Source: Microvirga vignae (GTDB taxonomy: Bacteria; Pseudomonadota; Alphaproteobacteria; Rhizobiales; Beijerinckiaceae). Taken from it: a stretch of DNA of 64,000 nt. The stretch spans positions 186,001-250,000 of the forward strand of contig NZ_LCYG01000032.1 of the NCBI RefSeq assembly GCF_001017175.1, given 5' to 3'. The translations under genes were made by a program, and so were the position numbers. Numbering within the stretch: the first letter of the stretch is position 1; each line of letters starts with the position of its first letter. A model generated the notes under the pieces. The model had not been told where the DNA came from. It did no database searches and worked only from the letters and a program-made list of their open reading frames with translations. Of the stretch, positions 17,226-22,302 are shown piece after piece.

Positions 17226-17423
17226 ATGACCCGCGCCTCCAGCCCCTGCATCCGAGTCTGTACCCTCGACCCTGAAACGGGGCTCTGCGAGGGCTGCGGC
17301 CGCACGCGCGAGGAAATCGGGCGCTGGTATCGCCTGACGGAGGAAGAGCGCCTGCGGATCATGGCCGAGCTGCCGGAGCGCATGCGGCAGGCTTTCGCCA
17401 TCCAGCAGGACGAGGCCGAGTGA
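17226..17423 (+). CDS. DUF1289 domain protein
   Basis: A 65-residue protein with the DUF1289 pattern: SPCIRVCTLDPETGLCEGCGRTREEIGRW, with four Cys in a CxxxC...CxxC arrangement, followed by a helical EERLRIMAELPERM tail. The Cys pattern suggests metal or Fe-S binding, but the function of this family is not known. It starts 15 bases after cobS and its stop overlaps the next start (TGATG), so the three genes are probably cotranscribed. Confidence 0.88.
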   Translation: MTRASSPCIRVCTLDPETGLCEGCGRTREEIGRWYRLTEEERLRIMAELPERMRQAFAIQQDEAE

Positions 17424-18124
17424 TGCCGGGCATTCGTGGCACGGGCGGGTTGCTTCTGATGGCGGCGCTGCTGATTGCGATGTTCGCCGAGCAGGATATC
17501 GGCGCCTTCACTCCTCTCGAAGCCGCAGGTCTCTTGGGCTTTGGCGGCGTCAGCCTTCTTCTCGCCGGCGGCATCATCGAGGGTTTTGCCCGTCACTGGA
17601 CCTATGGCGTGCAGGCCATTGCCGTGAGCGGCGGCGTGCTGATCGCGCTCATGGTCATGTATGCCTCCCGCGGCGAGTTCCAGACCGTGATCGACCGCGC
17701 CATCGGCGACATTTCGGTCGGCCGCACGGTCGTTACACCGGACGGCGAAGTGGTCGCCGCGCGCAGAACCGACGGAAGCTTCCTGCTCCAGGGCAAGGTG
17801 AACGGGCACGAGACGCGCTTCGTGTTCGACACGGGCGCGAGCACGGTGGTGCTGCGTGCGGAAAACGCTACCTCCCTCGGTATCGAACCGGAAACACTGA
17901 ACTACTCCGTTCCCGTTGCGACAGCGAATGGTGGTGCGCTCGCAGCTCCCATTGTGGTGGAGCGCCTCTCGATTGGACCGATCACGGAACGCAATGTCCA
18001 CGCGCTCGTCGCAAGAGAAGGCGTGCTGCACGCCAATCTTCTCGGCATGACTTTCCTGGAGCGCCTCGGATCCTACGAGGTGCGCGGCAACAGGCTGATC
18101 CTGAGGGCGAAGACAGCTCATTGA
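17423..18124 (+). CDS. Membrane-anchored retropepsin-like aspartic protease (TIGR02281 type)
   Basis: A 233-residue protein with three N-terminal hydrophobic helices (about 8-22, 35-52, 62-80) and a C-terminal single-lobe aspartic protease domain. The active-site motif is FVFDTGASTVVL with D136, and a second conserved block LLGMTFLERLGSYEVRGNRLIL is at the end. One lobe per chain means it must dimerise to be active. The protease domain probably faces the periplasm. An ATG at 17423 overlapping the upstream stop is preferred to the GTG at 17420. Related to the clan AA family found across alphaproteobacteria. Confidence 0.88.
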   Translation: MPGIRGTGGLLLMAALLIAMFAEQDIGAFTPLEAAGLLGFGGVSLLLAGGIIEGFARHWTYGVQAIAVSGGVLIALMVMYASRGEFQTVIDRAIGDISVGRTVVTPDGEVVAARRTDGSFLLQGKVNGHETRFVFDTGASTVVLRAENATSLGIEPETLNYSVPVATANGGALAAPIVVERLSIGPITERNVHALVAREGVLHANLLGMTFLERLGSYEVRGNRLILRAKTAH

Positions 18125-18176: not shown

Positions 18177-18959
18177 TCAGGGAAAGGAATGATTGAAGAG
18201 GAGTGCGCGCGGCTCCGGCCGCATCGTCTCGAGGTTGCAGTTCTTCGGCCCCAGTCTGCCTGCCAAACGAGGATGCCGCTCTGCGAGCTGCTCAAGCGTT
18301 ACATTCTGCGCAATGCGCGGATGAGCGACGCACACCGCCCCGTCGGGTCCCCATGCGGCCTCGAACTGCATGCCGTCTGGTTTCTCTGATTTCTGGATGC
18401 CGAAACGATCGAAAACATCGACAGACGTGCCGTCGCGCGTCGTCGGTCGATCATCCCCGCCGTAATCGGCTCGCAGCATATGCATGCAAGCTCGATGCAG
18501 TTCCTGCATTGGCAGGCCCCTGCTGCTGTCCCAAGGGCGATAGCCCATGCGAACACATTTGCCTTCCGCACCGCTGGTACAAGTAAATCTGAAGCCGCCT
18601 GAGCCGTCAGGCATAGGAAAACCGGCACGGCGCCCTTGAGGATCGGATAAGCAGAACGGGCCGAGTTCTTTCCCGTCTGGAGAATGAATCGAGAGGCGGT
18701 ACAGCAGAAGAGGACCTCCTGTTGCAGTATTATCCTCTTCTATGCCGTCGATCCGGACCTGTTTCTCGCCGTCCTGGTCGGTGAGAACCAATCTGACCCC
18801 GATCAGCGCCTCGCGCCGCAGAATCCGACCGTCGTCCAAGCTCAGCACAAGCTCCGGCCCATCCGCCTGAAGCCTGCCACCCGCGCTCATGGCAGCGTGG
18901 GGGAAGACGAGACCATGCAGGATGGTCAGCAGAGAAGATGCGAGGGACAGAGTGCGCAT
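18177..18959 (-). CDS. Secreted ADYC-domain protein (ADYC motif altered to ADYG)
   Basis: A 260-residue exported protein; the ATG at 18959 begins a good signal peptide (MRTLSLASSLLTILHGLVFP, cut near AMSA). Residues about 120-215 match what I know of the ADYC domain: KCVRMGYRPW (134-143), a helix with HRACMHMLRADYGGD (155-169), TTRDGTSVDVFDRFGIQ, then MQFEAAWGPDGAVCVAHPR. In the usual motif the position after ADY is Cys; here it is Gly167. Six Cys remain in the mature part and could form disulfides. The function of the domain is unknown. It lies 65 bases downstream of a small NGLSx-repeat gene on the same strand and is probably cotranscribed. Confidence 0.72.
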   Translation of the reverse strand: MRTLSLASSLLTILHGLVFPHAAMSAGGRLQADGPELVLSLDDGRILRREALIGVRLVLTDQDGEKQVRIDGIEEDNTATGGPLLLYRLSIHSPDGKELGPFCLSDPQGRRAGFPMPDGSGGFRFTCTSGAEGKCVRMGYRPWDSSRGLPMQELHRACMHMLRADYGGDDRPTTRDGTSVDVFDRFGIQKSEKPDGMQFEAAWGPDGAVCVAHPRIAQNVTLEQLAERHPRLAGRLGPKNCNLETMRPEPRALLFNHSFP

Positions 18960-18983
18960 GAGATGAAGCCCGTTAGGGAAGTA

Positions 18984-19001
18984 GCCTCTCGAATGAGAGG
19001 C
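18984..19001. repeat. Short hairpin between the ADYC gene and the first NGLS-repeat gene
   Basis: GCCTCTC (18984-18990) and GAGAGGC (18995-19001) form a perfect 7-bp stem with a 4-nt loop in the 65-base gap. There is no U-tract, so it may lower or process the transcript and is unlikely to be a full terminator. Confidence 0.5.
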
Positions 19002-19024
19002 CACAGGTTATAAAGTAGCGCGAA

Positions 19025-19282
19025 CTATTGGCCGAGCGAGATCTGCGTACCGTCCTGCAGGATTGCTGCTTGAAGCTGCATCGCCAAAGGTACGGTGCCT
19101 TGGGCATCTCGGCCGTTTACACTAAGGCCGTTTACGCTCAGGCCATTCACACTGAGACCATTCACACTGAGGCCGTTCACGCTGAGTCCGTTTGAGGTCT
19201 CAAGGGCGTTTGCACCCCAAGCTGCGGAAAGCCCAAGTGTGATAGACAGAACTGCGATGTAAGATCGATTGATCATATTCAT
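19025..19282 (-). CDS. Small secreted protein with five NGLSV repeats (copy A)
   Basis: An 85-residue protein. A signal peptide (MNMINRSYIAVLSITLGLSAAWGANA) precedes LETS, then five consecutive NGLSV pentapeptides and a sixth partial NG. A short linker RDAQGTVPL follows and a C-terminal tail MQLQAAILQDGTQISLGQ. No known family is recognised. The pentad resembles the simple repeats that fold as beta solenoids, but is too short to make more than one or two coils. The tail ILQDGxxISL is shared with the second small gene at 19761-19976, showing that the two are paralogues. It lies directly upstream of the ADYC-domain gene. Confidence 0.8.
   Translation of the reverse strand: MNMINRSYIAVLSITLGLSAAWGANALETSNGLSVNGLSVNGLSVNGLSVNGLSVNGRDAQGTVPLAMQLQAAILQDGTQISLGQ
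19112..19192 (-). repeat. Five tandem 15-bp repeats encoding NGLSV
   Basis: Five exact 15-base units lie at 19118-19192 plus 6 bases of a sixth (19112-19117). All encode NGLSV, but the units differ from each other at synonymous positions, so the amino acid repeat has been kept while the DNA has drifted. Confidence 0.85.
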
Positions 19283-19703
19283 CCCCTTAATTGCTCCTTC
19301 TGCGAATGAAGTAATGTTTCTTCTTGTTCGCGTAGGGGAAAATACACGTAATTTCCTTACAGCATAGCCTAGAGTGAAATGTTATATGTTAATAATTGCA
19401 AATCTTACTTTGCGCAAATGTTGCTAGTTGGGCGATTCCGGTTTTACTCAATTACTAATTGAACTTTGTTGACTTATCGTTGTGCGGTTGCCCCAGTCAT
19501 AACTTTAAGTAACCATACTCCTGCCGAGGCAGGGGCCATCTCGAAGAATGATTCAGCGAACATGACAGACACCTCTGAAACGGACCTGACGGCGCTTCTC
19601 GGGAGAGCTTGCGGTGTTGCAAGCGCCCCCTTCCACCACGGGGCACGAGACCCGGAGCCACGTTTCAAGACTATGGTTCCGGCTGAGCAGGGTGCAGAGC
19701 CAA
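19283..19703. other. AT-rich intergenic region upstream of NGLS-repeat gene A
   Basis: This stretch is clearly richer in A+T than its surroundings, especially 19310-19480. It should hold the promoter of copy A. I see no convincing gene: a plus-strand reading frame at 19466-19777 begins with TTG, has no ribosome binding site, and runs through a terminator of the opposite strand. Confidence 0.6.
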
Positions 19704-19730
19704 TAAAAAAGCCCCCGCCGAAGCGGGAGC
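19704..19730 (-). terminator. Terminator of NGLS-repeat gene B
   Basis: On the minus strand GCTCCCGC (19730-19723), a CGAA-complement tetraloop (TTCG) and GCGGGGGC (19718-19711) form an 8-bp stem with one G-T pair, followed by TTTTTT. It lies 31 bases after the stop of the gene at 19761-19976, which is therefore transcribed separately from copy A. Confidence 0.85.
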
Positions 19731-19760
19731 TGATGCAATCGGATCAGAGTGATGGTTCTG

Positions 19761-19976
19761 TTACTTTAGGGATATGACCGAGCCATCCTGCAGGATCATG
19801 GCTTTGAGGCGGGCCGTGCTCGACGAGGCATCATTGAGGCGGCCTCGAACATCCGCGCCATTCGCGCTGAGGCCATTGAGGCTGAGGCCATTTGCGATCT
19901 GAGCCGCGTGCGCGGCCGGTACTGTTGAGATTCCAACTGCAATTGCCAGAATGGCAGTGCATGAAAGACAAGACAT
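19761..19976 (-). CDS. Small secreted protein with NGLSx repeats (copy B)
   Basis: A 71-residue paralogue of the protein at 19025-19282. It has a signal peptide (to about AAHA), the repeat NGLSLNGLSANG, a linker ADVRGRLNDASSSTA, and the shared tail RLKAMILQDGSVISLK. It has only two repeats against five in copy A, so repeat number varies while the tail is conserved. It has its own terminator and an AT-rich upstream region, so it is an independent transcription unit. Function unknown; export to the periplasm or outside is the only supported inference. Confidence 0.78.
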   Translation of the reverse strand: MSCLSCTAILAIAVGISTVPAAHAAQIANGLSLNGLSANGADVRGRLNDASSSTARLKAMILQDGSVISLK

Positions 19977-20231: not shown

Positions 20232-21218
20232 CTATTCTACGGGCTCCAGCTGCTTAACGCGCACATGAGCCACCGCATCGCGAAGGGTGTTGAGATTAGC
20301 TCCAGGCTTCGTCGCCTCTGTCGCCAAGTGTCGGCGGTAAGCCCGGGCGCCAGGTTGTCCCGTGAAAAGGCCGAGCATGTGGCGGGTGATGTTGCTCAGG
20401 CGCTCGCCCTTCTCCAACTGCTCCGCAATGTACGGCTCGTAAGCCTCCACCGCCTCGAAGCCGTCGGCCACCGGCGGCTCCTCGCCGTAAAGCTCACCGT
20501 CAACAGAGAGCAGGATCTCCGGCTCATGATAGGCCACGCGGCCCAGCATGACGCCATCCACATGCTTCAGGTGCTGGTGGATCTCTGCCCAGGTTTTGAT
20601 GCCCCCGTTGATGGCAATCGGCAGATCCGGACGCGCCGCCTTCAGGCGATAGACACGGGGATAGTCGAGAGGTGGAATGTCCCGGTTCTCCTTCGGTGAC
20701 AGACCCTGGAGCCAGGCCTTGCGCGCATGGACCGTGAGTTCGTCGCTGCCTGCGGCGACAACGCATTCGGTCAGGCGATTGAGGGCCTCTTCCGTATCCT
20801 GATCGTCCACGCCGATGCGGCACTTCACCGTCACCGGCAGCGAAACGGTCGCCTTCATGGCAGCCACGCACTCGCCGACGAGCAAGGGCTCCTGCATGAG
20901 GCAGGCGCCGAAGCGGCCGTTCTGCACCCGATCGGAAGGGCAGCCCACATTGAGGTTGATCTCGTCATAGCCGAAATCGGCACAGATCTTGGCTGCCTGG
21001 GCCAACTCTGCCGGGTTCGATCCGCCAAGCTGCACCGCCACCGGATGCTCCGCATCGCTGAAGCCGAGCAGGCGCTCGCGCGGCCCGAAAATGACCGCAC
21101 CCGTGGTGACCATCTCCGTATAAAGCCGTGCCCGGCGCGACATGACGCGATGGAACGCGCGGCAATGCCGGTCGGTCCAGTCCATCATGGGGGCAACAGT
21201 GAAGAACTTCTGGGTCAT
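20232..21218 (-). CDS. dusA: tRNA-dihydrouridine(20/20a) synthase DusA
   Basis: A 328-residue flavoenzyme that reduces uridine 20/20a in the D-loop of tRNA. The N-terminus FTVAPMMDWTDRHCRAFHR is the DusA-specific opening. The catalytic Cys is C93 in NVGCPSDRVQNGRFGACLM, and IAINGGIK near 200 and GVMLGRVAYHEP near 225 bind FMN. Length and motifs are normal. The stop at 20232 is followed by an AT-rich stretch. Confidence 0.95.
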   Translation of the reverse strand: MTQKFFTVAPMMDWTDRHCRAFHRVMSRRARLYTEMVTTGAVIFGPRERLLGFSDAEHPVAVQLGGSNPAELAQAAKICADFGYDEINLNVGCPSDRVQNGRFGACLMQEPLLVGECVAAMKATVSLPVTVKCRIGVDDQDTEEALNRLTECVVAAGSDELTVHARKAWLQGLSPKENRDIPPLDYPRVYRLKAARPDLPIAINGGIKTWAEIHQHLKHVDGVMLGRVAYHEPEILLSVDGELYGEEPPVADGFEAVEAYEPYIAEQLEKGERLSNITRHMLGLFTGQPGARAYRRHLATEATKPGANLNTLRDAVAHVRVKQLEPVE

Positions 21219-21456: not shown

Positions 21457-21777
21457 ATGATGAAGAGACTGCTTGGTATTACTTGCGCCGCTGCCATGAT
21501 GATGGCAATTCCTGTGGCCACTTATGCGCAGACTTCTAGCGAAAATACCAATCCCAATAGCGCATCCCAATACGCCCCGGGCCAACGGATGAAGTCCGGT
21601 ACGACTGGTTCCACGACCAGCCCTGGCGCTTCGGGCTACGCTCCCGGTCAGCAGATGAAGTCGGACACGACTGGTTCTACTACCGGCTCCGGCGCTTCCG
21701 ATTACGCTCCCGGCCAGAAGAAAAAGCTGCCGACTGACACCACCGGCTCGACCTCTTCGACCACGAAGAGCCAATAA
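21457..21777 (+). CDS. Small secreted protein with three YAPGQ repeats
   Basis: A 106-residue protein with a signal peptide (MMKRLLGITCAAAMMMAIPVATYAQ). The mature part is low-complexity Ser/Thr/Gly and contains three units of about 22 residues built on ASxYAPGQxxKSxTTGSTT. No enzymatic motif is present. I recall similar YAPGQ-containing small proteins in Rhizobiales, with no known role. A strong AAGGAG ribosome binding site precedes the ATG. The repeat content and predicted disorder suggest a cell-envelope or stress-related protein, but this is a guess. Confidence 0.75.
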   Translation: MMKRLLGITCAAAMMMAIPVATYAQTSSENTNPNSASQYAPGQRMKSGTTGSTTSPGASGYAPGQQMKSDTTGSTTGSGASDYAPGQKKKLPTDTTGSTSSTTKSQ

Positions 21778-21830: not shown

Positions 21831-22302
21831 TCAGATCAGTTCAGCGACTTTGGCTTCCAGCGCCGAAGCGGCATCGCTTGGCGTCAACTTCACCTGGAGC
21901 CCGCGCTGGCCTCCGTTCATGAAGACCTCGCCATGGGCGAAGGCGGATTGCTCGATAAACGTCGGCACGCGCTTCTTCTGACCGAAGGGGCTGATGCCGC
22001 CAACGTGATAGCCGGTCACGCGCTCCGCATCCGCAGGCTTCATCATCTGCGCAGCCTTGCCGCCGAGAGCTGAGGCGAGCTTCTTCAGGTTAACCTCCTA
22101 GTCGGAAGGAACGACGACGCAGGCGGGCTTCCCATCCACCAGCACCATCAAGGTTTTCAGCACGCTGTTAGGATCCGCTCCCATCGCCTTCCGCAGCCTG
22201 CAGGCCGATGCGTTCCGCATTCGGATCATACTCATACGAATGAACCGTGAAGGAAACGCCGGCCTGCTGAAGGGCCTGCGTGGCGCGGGTCGACTTGGAC
22301 AT
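21831..22302 (-). pseudogene. ybaK: Broken ybaK (Cys-tRNA(Pro)/aminoacyl-tRNA deacylase)
   Basis: Read from ATG at 22302, the protein starts like YbaK (MSKSTRATQALQQAGVSF, then YDPNAERIGLQAAE) but then leaves frame: one extra G in the run read as GAAGGCGATGG shifts it into a stop. Removing that base restores AMGADPNSVLKTLMVLVDG and PACVVVPSD, where an in-frame TAG follows before EVNLKKLASALGG. The C-terminal part MMKPADAERVTGYHVGGISPFGQKK remains open to 21831. YbaK hydrolyses mischarged Cys-tRNA(Pro). Two independent lesions argue for loss of function and against a single sequencing error. Confidence 0.85.

Follow-up and report, generated by a model that had tools for sequence, protein, structure and literature searches.

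A tiny exported pentad-repeat protein and its ADYC-domain neighbour in Microvirga vignae: candidate halves of a two-part envelope module

The locus and its genes

The window, a 64,000-nucleotide stretch of the Microvirga vignae contig NZ_LCYG01000032.1, contains a gene for an ADYC-domain protein and two genes for tiny repeat proteins, which we call micro A and micro B. The features of this locus are as follows.

18177..18959, minus strand: ADYC-domain protein of 260 amino acids, PF20032 match of 150.5 bits, N-terminal export signal
19025..19282, minus strand: micro A, with export signal, five NGLSV units plus NGRDA and the tail ILQDGTQISL; matches the micro profile
19118..19192, minus strand: the five NGLSV units of micro A, from the sequence and the codon comparison
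19034..19063, minus strand: conserved tail ILQDGTQISL of micro A, from alignment A2
19761..19976, minus strand: micro B, with export signal, the pentads NGLSL, NGLSA and NGADV and the tail ILQDGSVISL; matches the micro profile
19848..19892, minus strand: the three pentads of micro B, read from the sequence
19767..19796, minus strand: conserved tail ILQDGSVISL of micro B, from the alignment
19710..19731, minus strand: intrinsic-terminator-like hairpin of nine pairs and then a T run, behind micro B

The original prediction had described three minus-strand reading frames, each with a signal peptide. All three are present, and in each an export signal (hydrophobic core and A-x-A) was recognized by eye. 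NGLSx pentads together with an ILQDGxxISL tail had been ascribed to both small proteins, which is correct for micro A and for the two tails; micro B contains only two NGLSx units. Micro A lies 65 bases and micro B 801 bases upstream of the ADYC gene. The locus is flanked by an aspartyl-protease-like gene (17420-18124, plus strand) and a dihydrouridine synthase gene (20232-21218, minus strand). Five terminator-like sites were found in the stretch in comparison to a mean of 2.3 in shuffled sequences, and the one behind micro B has the most pairs. Due to this hairpin, micro B is probably a unit of its own and micro A with the ADYC gene probably another.

Two further small frames were observed in the window. 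At 21457-21777 (plus strand) lies another small exported repeat protein, with xYAPGQxMKS...TTGST units and no Pfam match at E 0.001. The 71-amino-acid frame at 21831-22046 (minus strand) matches only positions 61-119 of the 123 positions of PF04073, an aminoacyl-tRNA editing domain, and is presumably a fragment or has a mis-set start.

The ADYC-domain protein

The ADYC assignment, whose failure in a profile search had been named as grounds for giving up the prediction, holds: residues 50-216 match PF20032 with 150.5 bits, the Pfam cut-off being 27. A protein search and the family profile found no second ADYC match in the genome. The eponymous motif reads ADYG instead of ADYC, which leaves the profile match unaffected. 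The cysteine of the motif is found in none of the 25 Microvirga rows and is present in the Nannocystis, Tahibacter and L009 copies. The window protein shares the conserved cysteine frame of the family, six cysteines which are invariant in the 76 rows of alignment A3 (the window protein and 75 of 83 frames, eight broken frames, near copies and close relatives being omitted). This suggests three disulfides, which would agree with export; as read by eye, the export signal would be cleaved after about residue 26.

AlphaFold2 models the mature chain with a pLDDT of 96.6 and a pTM of 0.92. A Foldseek search of the PDB with this model gave 772 matches at E 10 and none at E 0.001 (best 0.075), and a search of viral models likewise none at 0.001 (best 0.028). 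Since no solved structure is matched at E 0.001, the modelled ADYC domain may represent a new fold with respect to solved structures and viral models. A weak sequence match in the PDB, Amoebiasin-1 (E 0.15), was judged to be due to chance. None of the PADLOC models for anti-phage defence matches the three window proteins at E 0.01. A search of open-access literature for the ADYC domain, PF20032 and two pentad strings brought up no paper on any of them, and to our knowledge no function is known for this family.

The micro-proteins: repeats and tail

Micro A and micro B are real coding genes. The DNA pattern for NGLS-NGLS has five matches in the 6.47 Mb genome, all of them within these two genes, and the backwards control has none. 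When neighbouring NGLSV units of micro A are compared codon by codon, 11 of the 20 adjacent pairs are different, each by synonymous change; the absence of replacements is a matter of choice because the units were selected for identical protein. The corresponding figure for 23 perfect arrays from Microvirga loci is 271 of 635. This synonymous spread indicates repeats which are old and kept by selection rather than fresh slippage, and the repeat of micro A thus looks old and held by selection. Recent arrays are the exception: the 23 NGLST units of L058 occur in only two nucleotide versions and the four units of L050 in only one. Across the Microvirga pairs the number of pentads ranges from 1 to 24. 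L078, L079 and L066 carry two or three tandem micro copies ahead of one ADYC gene.

Two types of tail were found, ILQDGSxVxL in Microvirga and xxxGIELP elsewhere. The tails outside Microvirga read GIELP or similar, and some of them read IELPDG or ELPNG, which connects the two types. The AlphaFold2 model of a Tahibacter micro of 160 amino acids and 18 pentads has a pLDDT of 51.9 and zero strands, AlphaFold2 being a poor judge of repeats with so thin an alignment; residues 121-140 reach 81-88, which points to the tail as the best-defined part of the micro. The idea that the tail is a copy of the N-terminal hairpin of ADYC was dropped, as its best matches lie mostly at other DG motifs.

In NCBIfam no family lies above its cut-off for micro A or micro B, and in Pfam only the GLTT repeat PF01744 does so for the window micros, just (micro A, 22.3 bits with a cut-off of 21). 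Such micro-proteins are thus easily missed. Matches of the micros to PHROGs tail and head proteins (E 0.0045-0.061), and the matches to Lamprin, Plug and Decapeptide, were judged to be due to chance. Viral relatives were found neither among 64 pattern stretches nor by tblastn. A search with the single window protein as query retrieved no relatives; an alignment used as query did.

Linkage of micro and ADYC genes within Microvirga

Micros were identified by a rule (three N-x pentad steps and a hydrophobic start), degenerate ones by eye, and by two profiles, A2 from 21 of 51 candidate micros and A6 from 17. Since A2 and A6 consist of ADYC-linked micros, far variants, and among them unlinked types, would be missed.

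ADYC is encoded in 41 of 48 Microvirga genomes, and A2 finds a micro in 38, all of them ADYC-positive. None of the seven ADYC-less genomes has a match (Fisher p 1.6e-6, calculated on related species, which are not independent samples, and with a profile built from micros of the same loci). The ADYC-positive genomes without an A2 match are G314 and G322, whose micros are variants (of the NRLA type, and of the RPPPNG type in the second locus of G322), and G317, where the ADYC match is a fragment. The profile search had been proposed as a check of how often the repeat genes lie close to an ADYC gene, and its outcome shows no unlinked spread in the genus: 74 of the 76 A2 matches, of which one gene can give several, are on a contig with ADYC and near it, 69 within 1 kb and the farthest at about 3.5-3.6 kb. 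The remaining two lie at the very end of contig 65 of G304, where the sequence stops within the repeat.

The locus set comprises 52 ADYC rows in 45 stretches. By rule, a micro is found at most 1.5 kb upstream on the same strand in 42 of the 52 rows, on the opposite strand upstream in none, and downstream in six, each of them from a locus with several micros. The farther flank, 480 kb in total, contains a single micro-like frame, which is the micro gene 3.4 kb upstream of the L053 ADYC gene. Upstream DNA was usable for 46 ADYC genes, and all of them have a micro there on the same strand, 40 by rule and six by eye; the 46 are the 52 rows minus the second rows of L068 and L083, the fragments L088 and L089 and the contig-end genes L069 and L048 (first copy), and they include three broken frames (L068, L082, L083). 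In the six micros read by eye the starts are of the PPP/DPP type and the tail is of the same kind; they lie 47-60 bases upstream of ADYC. In 32 of the 40 rule-found loci the gap between the micro stop and the ADYC start is 45-70 bases, start codons and hence gaps being guessed by the script. The decayed ADYC fragments L088 and L089 are without a micro.

Other Proteobacteria and genomes without ADYC

In the order ADYC is rare, with five of 297 genomes including that of the window. The alignment scan of named genomes yielded 78 loci from the best 80 of 174 relatives, which belong to Microvirga, Reyranella, Azospirillum, Acetobacteraceae, Rhizobium, Mesorhizobium, Tahibacter, another gammaproteobacterium, Nannocystis and others. 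A clear nearby micro accompanies 33 of the 44 proteobacterial ADYC rows from outside Microvirga. By rule it lies upstream in 28 and downstream in four (L149, L161 and L162 of the Rhizobium kind, and L140); in L159 it was found upstream by eye, its start not being clear. Four rows have degenerate variants (L010, L119, L134, L138), two are at contig ends (L123, L126), and in five no micro was found (L131, L143, L146, L154, L164). As controls, the opposite strand upstream gave one hit in the 44 rows and 75 kb of farther flank gave none.

Profile A6 was run over 14 whole genomes with ADYC, six of which had supplied rows to it. Eleven genomes gave matches, 16 in total, of which 15 lie within 1.7 kb of ADYC and one at about 5 kb, with none elsewhere. 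Of the five ADYC-positive genomes of the order A2 detected a micro in one, that of the window, and A6 in three, compared with A6 matches in three of the 292 ADYC-negative genomes. A2 matched six of these 292, and both profiles together seven, at most 17-18 candidates per genome being scored.

Six of the seven were inspected. Four (G166, G171, G173, G194) have no micro gene, and two, G267 and G183, have micro-like genes; the seventh, G152, has its match (E 9e-4) in a 628-residue frame. In G267 the contig ends about 130 bases behind the micro-like gene. G183, with a micro-like NG pentad gene (L228, 1819-2100) and no ADYC found, is an exception as far as seen. A wide occurrence of the repeat genes without ADYC, which would have spoken against the original prediction, was thus not encountered, with two micro-like genes among the six genomes inspected of the 292 ADYC-negative ones.

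Some neighbouring observations belong here. G100, of the same genus code as G183, has ADYC with a C-x-x-W type neighbour. The frames L223 895-1650 and L224 865-1641 encode long proteins, presumably SET-domain proteins by their look, which end in a short NG pentad run and match the micro profile, without export signal or tail. In Reyranella-like loci a small exported protein lies near ADYC and has, in the manner of an outer-membrane barrel, F as its last residue (GWxxKF or GWTLRF). It was found at the following positions.

L127, 2537-2986: small protein between micro and ADYC
L133, 2615-3058: small protein between micro and ADYC
L137, 3440-3886: small protein between micro and ADYC
L158, 3353-3904: small protein between micro and ADYC
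L135, 5719-6357: small protein, downstream

Two of these proteins were tested and showed no Pfam family above cut-off; the protein may be a third part in these loci.

Fused and split forms in Myxococcota

ADYC occurs in 11 of 140 Myxococcota genomes, one Nannocystis genome having 26 matches. Forty Myxococcota ADYC frames were read, all from loci of the better matches. In 14 of them at least three NG-type pentads precede ADYC within one chain (11 from Nannocystis, two from G461 and one from G439). Thirteen of these were checked and contain 3 to 12 N-type units each. A lipobox-like stretch lies ahead of the pentads in 12 of the 13 (11 by rule, L189 by eye), L168 being without. The myxobacterial fusion of pentads and ADYC, which the original prediction had put forward, is therefore real, mostly behind a lipobox. 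The other 26 frames are without an array of three or more pentads; some have two pentads or a C-x-x-W-x-C-G-x-N-S start, and in the rest none was seen. A Nannocystis genome with fused chains also has a split pair, in which an NG-pentad gene ending SIELPDGRRFET lies directly upstream of the pentad-less ADYC protein L136.

Behind the pentads of the fused chains the best match to the tail lies within 40 residues in 5-6 of 13 chains, compared with 2.1 expected by position. This difference is weak, and a tail clearly kept in the fused chains was not accepted.

A start of the kind C-x-x-W-x-C-G-x-N is found as a separate small protein in L010 (8369-8593) and L119 (3297-3680) and is fused to ADYC in L191, L193 and L194 of Nannocystis. 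It is perhaps a second type of N-terminal module which occurs both split and fused.

Co-divergence of micro and ADYC

ADYC distances correlate with those of the micro tail (r 0.59) and of the micro signal part (r 0.70), with 0 of 5000 permutations in each case. On the ADYC tree, which is of a quick kind, the micro class changes eight times compared with 22.5 times when shuffled, and so low a number was reached in none of 200 shuffles. L049, L050 and L058 each have two neighbouring ADYC copies which fall into two clades, and each copy is accompanied by the tail type of its own clade (PNGxRIEL-like or ILxDGS-like). L078 is less clean, with two micro types and a second ADYC copy at the base of the other clade. 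Part of the co-divergence is shared descent of linked genes.

A two-part module and its alternatives

We observed that the micro and ADYC genes are linked in same-strand order, are absent together, diverge together and also occur in natural fusions, and that the repeats are under selection. From the fusion, the adjacency, the co-absence and the co-divergence we strongly infer that the repeat peptide and ADYC act together outside the cytoplasm. On balance we consider it rather likely that pentad micro and ADYC are made separately and form the two halves of one exported module, with the tail for docking and the pentads as an arm. Each half would be exported by its own export signal, and the conserved C-terminal tail of the micro would dock on the cognate ADYC in the periplasm or at the cell surface. 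The conservation of the tail, beside units which are free to vary in type and number, is the reason for taking it as the docking end. The NG-pentad run of 1 to 24 units would be a flexible or surface-binding arm of free length, which might tether, space or bind. Together, micro and ADYC would restore the order anchor, pentads, ADYC which some myxobacteria have in a single chain. Contact, the tail as its site and the role of the arm are what we infer in this scheme.

Several findings count against such a module: the five of 44 rows outside Microvirga in which no micro was found, the three Rhizobium-type loci and L140 with a downstream micro, the micro-like gene of G183, and the 26 of 40 Myxococcota frames lacking a pentad array. 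Against a docking tail in particular count its weak retention in the fused chains and the fact that the N-terminal hairpin of ADYC is not singled out.

The micro could instead be a substrate or precursor, whose NG pentads are cut, modified or released as signal peptides, with ADYC as processing enzyme, receptor or immunity-like partner. The repeats are species-specific, often homogeneous and variable in number, and in ADYC, apart from the cysteines, charged residues, among them K, R, D and E, are invariant or nearly so, all of which would suit such a role. The micros of L067 and L079, however, have one NG unit, too few for repeat release, some myxobacteria have repeats and ADYC in a single chain, and neither sequence nor fold comparisons matched an enzyme, so that we regard this explanation as unlikely. 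Still less probable is self-assembly of the pentads on the cell surface, as a beta-solenoid or functional amyloid (perhaps with a pentapeptide-repeat fold in longer relatives) for which ADYC serves as anchor or nucleator. On their own, arrays of 1-5 units are not long enough for a solenoid, and the AlphaFold2 model of the 18-pentad Tahibacter micro, of low pLDDT and from a thin alignment, has zero strands; the longer micros have period-5 N-G units with two hydrophobic positions, and some relatives match pentapeptide families (PF00805 in one of 21 A2 rows, PF13599 in Tahibacter). Neighbouring genes are often merely co-regulated, and micro B seems to have its own terminator, so the two proteins could share regulation and compartment and never touch. 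The natural fusion in myxobacteria, and neighbouring ADYC paralogues with different micro types, make this very improbable.

The docking module, put more broadly, would be an undescribed two-part envelope module of Alpha- and Gammaproteobacteria and Myxococcota, a description which we favour by a small measure. It would consist of an exported pentad arm, which changes fast and carries a conserved docking tail, and of a disulfide-rich ADYC domain for which no relative was found among solved structures. The two would be encoded by separate genes except in some myxobacteria, where they form one chain, and each ADYC lineage would have its own kind of arm. Many soil bacteria encode a tiny exported protein with a five-letter repeat beside an exported ADYC protein. 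A Pfam domain without known function and a tiny secreted repeat family become one testable module, for which natural fused and split forms are available for comparison.

Comparison with known families

With PF00805 proteins the micros share a period of five, export and small size. PMC8145042 gives at least eight contiguous repeats and a consensus with a central L or F for pentapeptide repeat proteins. Compared with these values, micro A has five repeats (six with NGRDA) and micro B three. The central residue is V when micro A is read as LSVNG, and the first residue is N when it is read as NGLSV; neither reading fits the residues listed for the consensus. In the best register the central position of the window micros is V, L or A. 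PF00805 matches neither micro A nor micro B at E 1, and the model of the longer Tahibacter relative, of low confidence (pLDDT 51.9), has zero strands and so lends no support to a right-handed quadrilateral beta-helix. By repeat number, consensus and profile the window micros were rejected as pentapeptide-repeat proteins. The longer relatives are nearer to these families: PF00805 matches one of 21 rows of A2 (best E 4.5e-6), and the Tahibacter micro has matches to PF13599 (E 1.9e-4) and PF00805 (E 0.0017) which stay below the respective cut-offs. The pentads may therefore be distantly related to the pentapeptide repeat. A useful contrast to the window micros is the secreted YjbI of Caulobacter (PMC12864828), a true exported pentapeptide-repeat protein.

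The GLTT repeat PF01744, which micro A matches just above the cut-off, is found in 14 of 21 A2 rows at E 0.1. The matching part is the short five-residue repeat and not the tail, and we take PF01744 to be a nematode repeat family.

Among the closest known counterparts is the fused myxobacterial PF20032 form, which has the same domain above cut-off, pentads before ADYC and an N-terminal export signal or lipobox. In the window proteins no lipobox was seen, the motif is ADYG, and pentads and ADYC are encoded by two genes.
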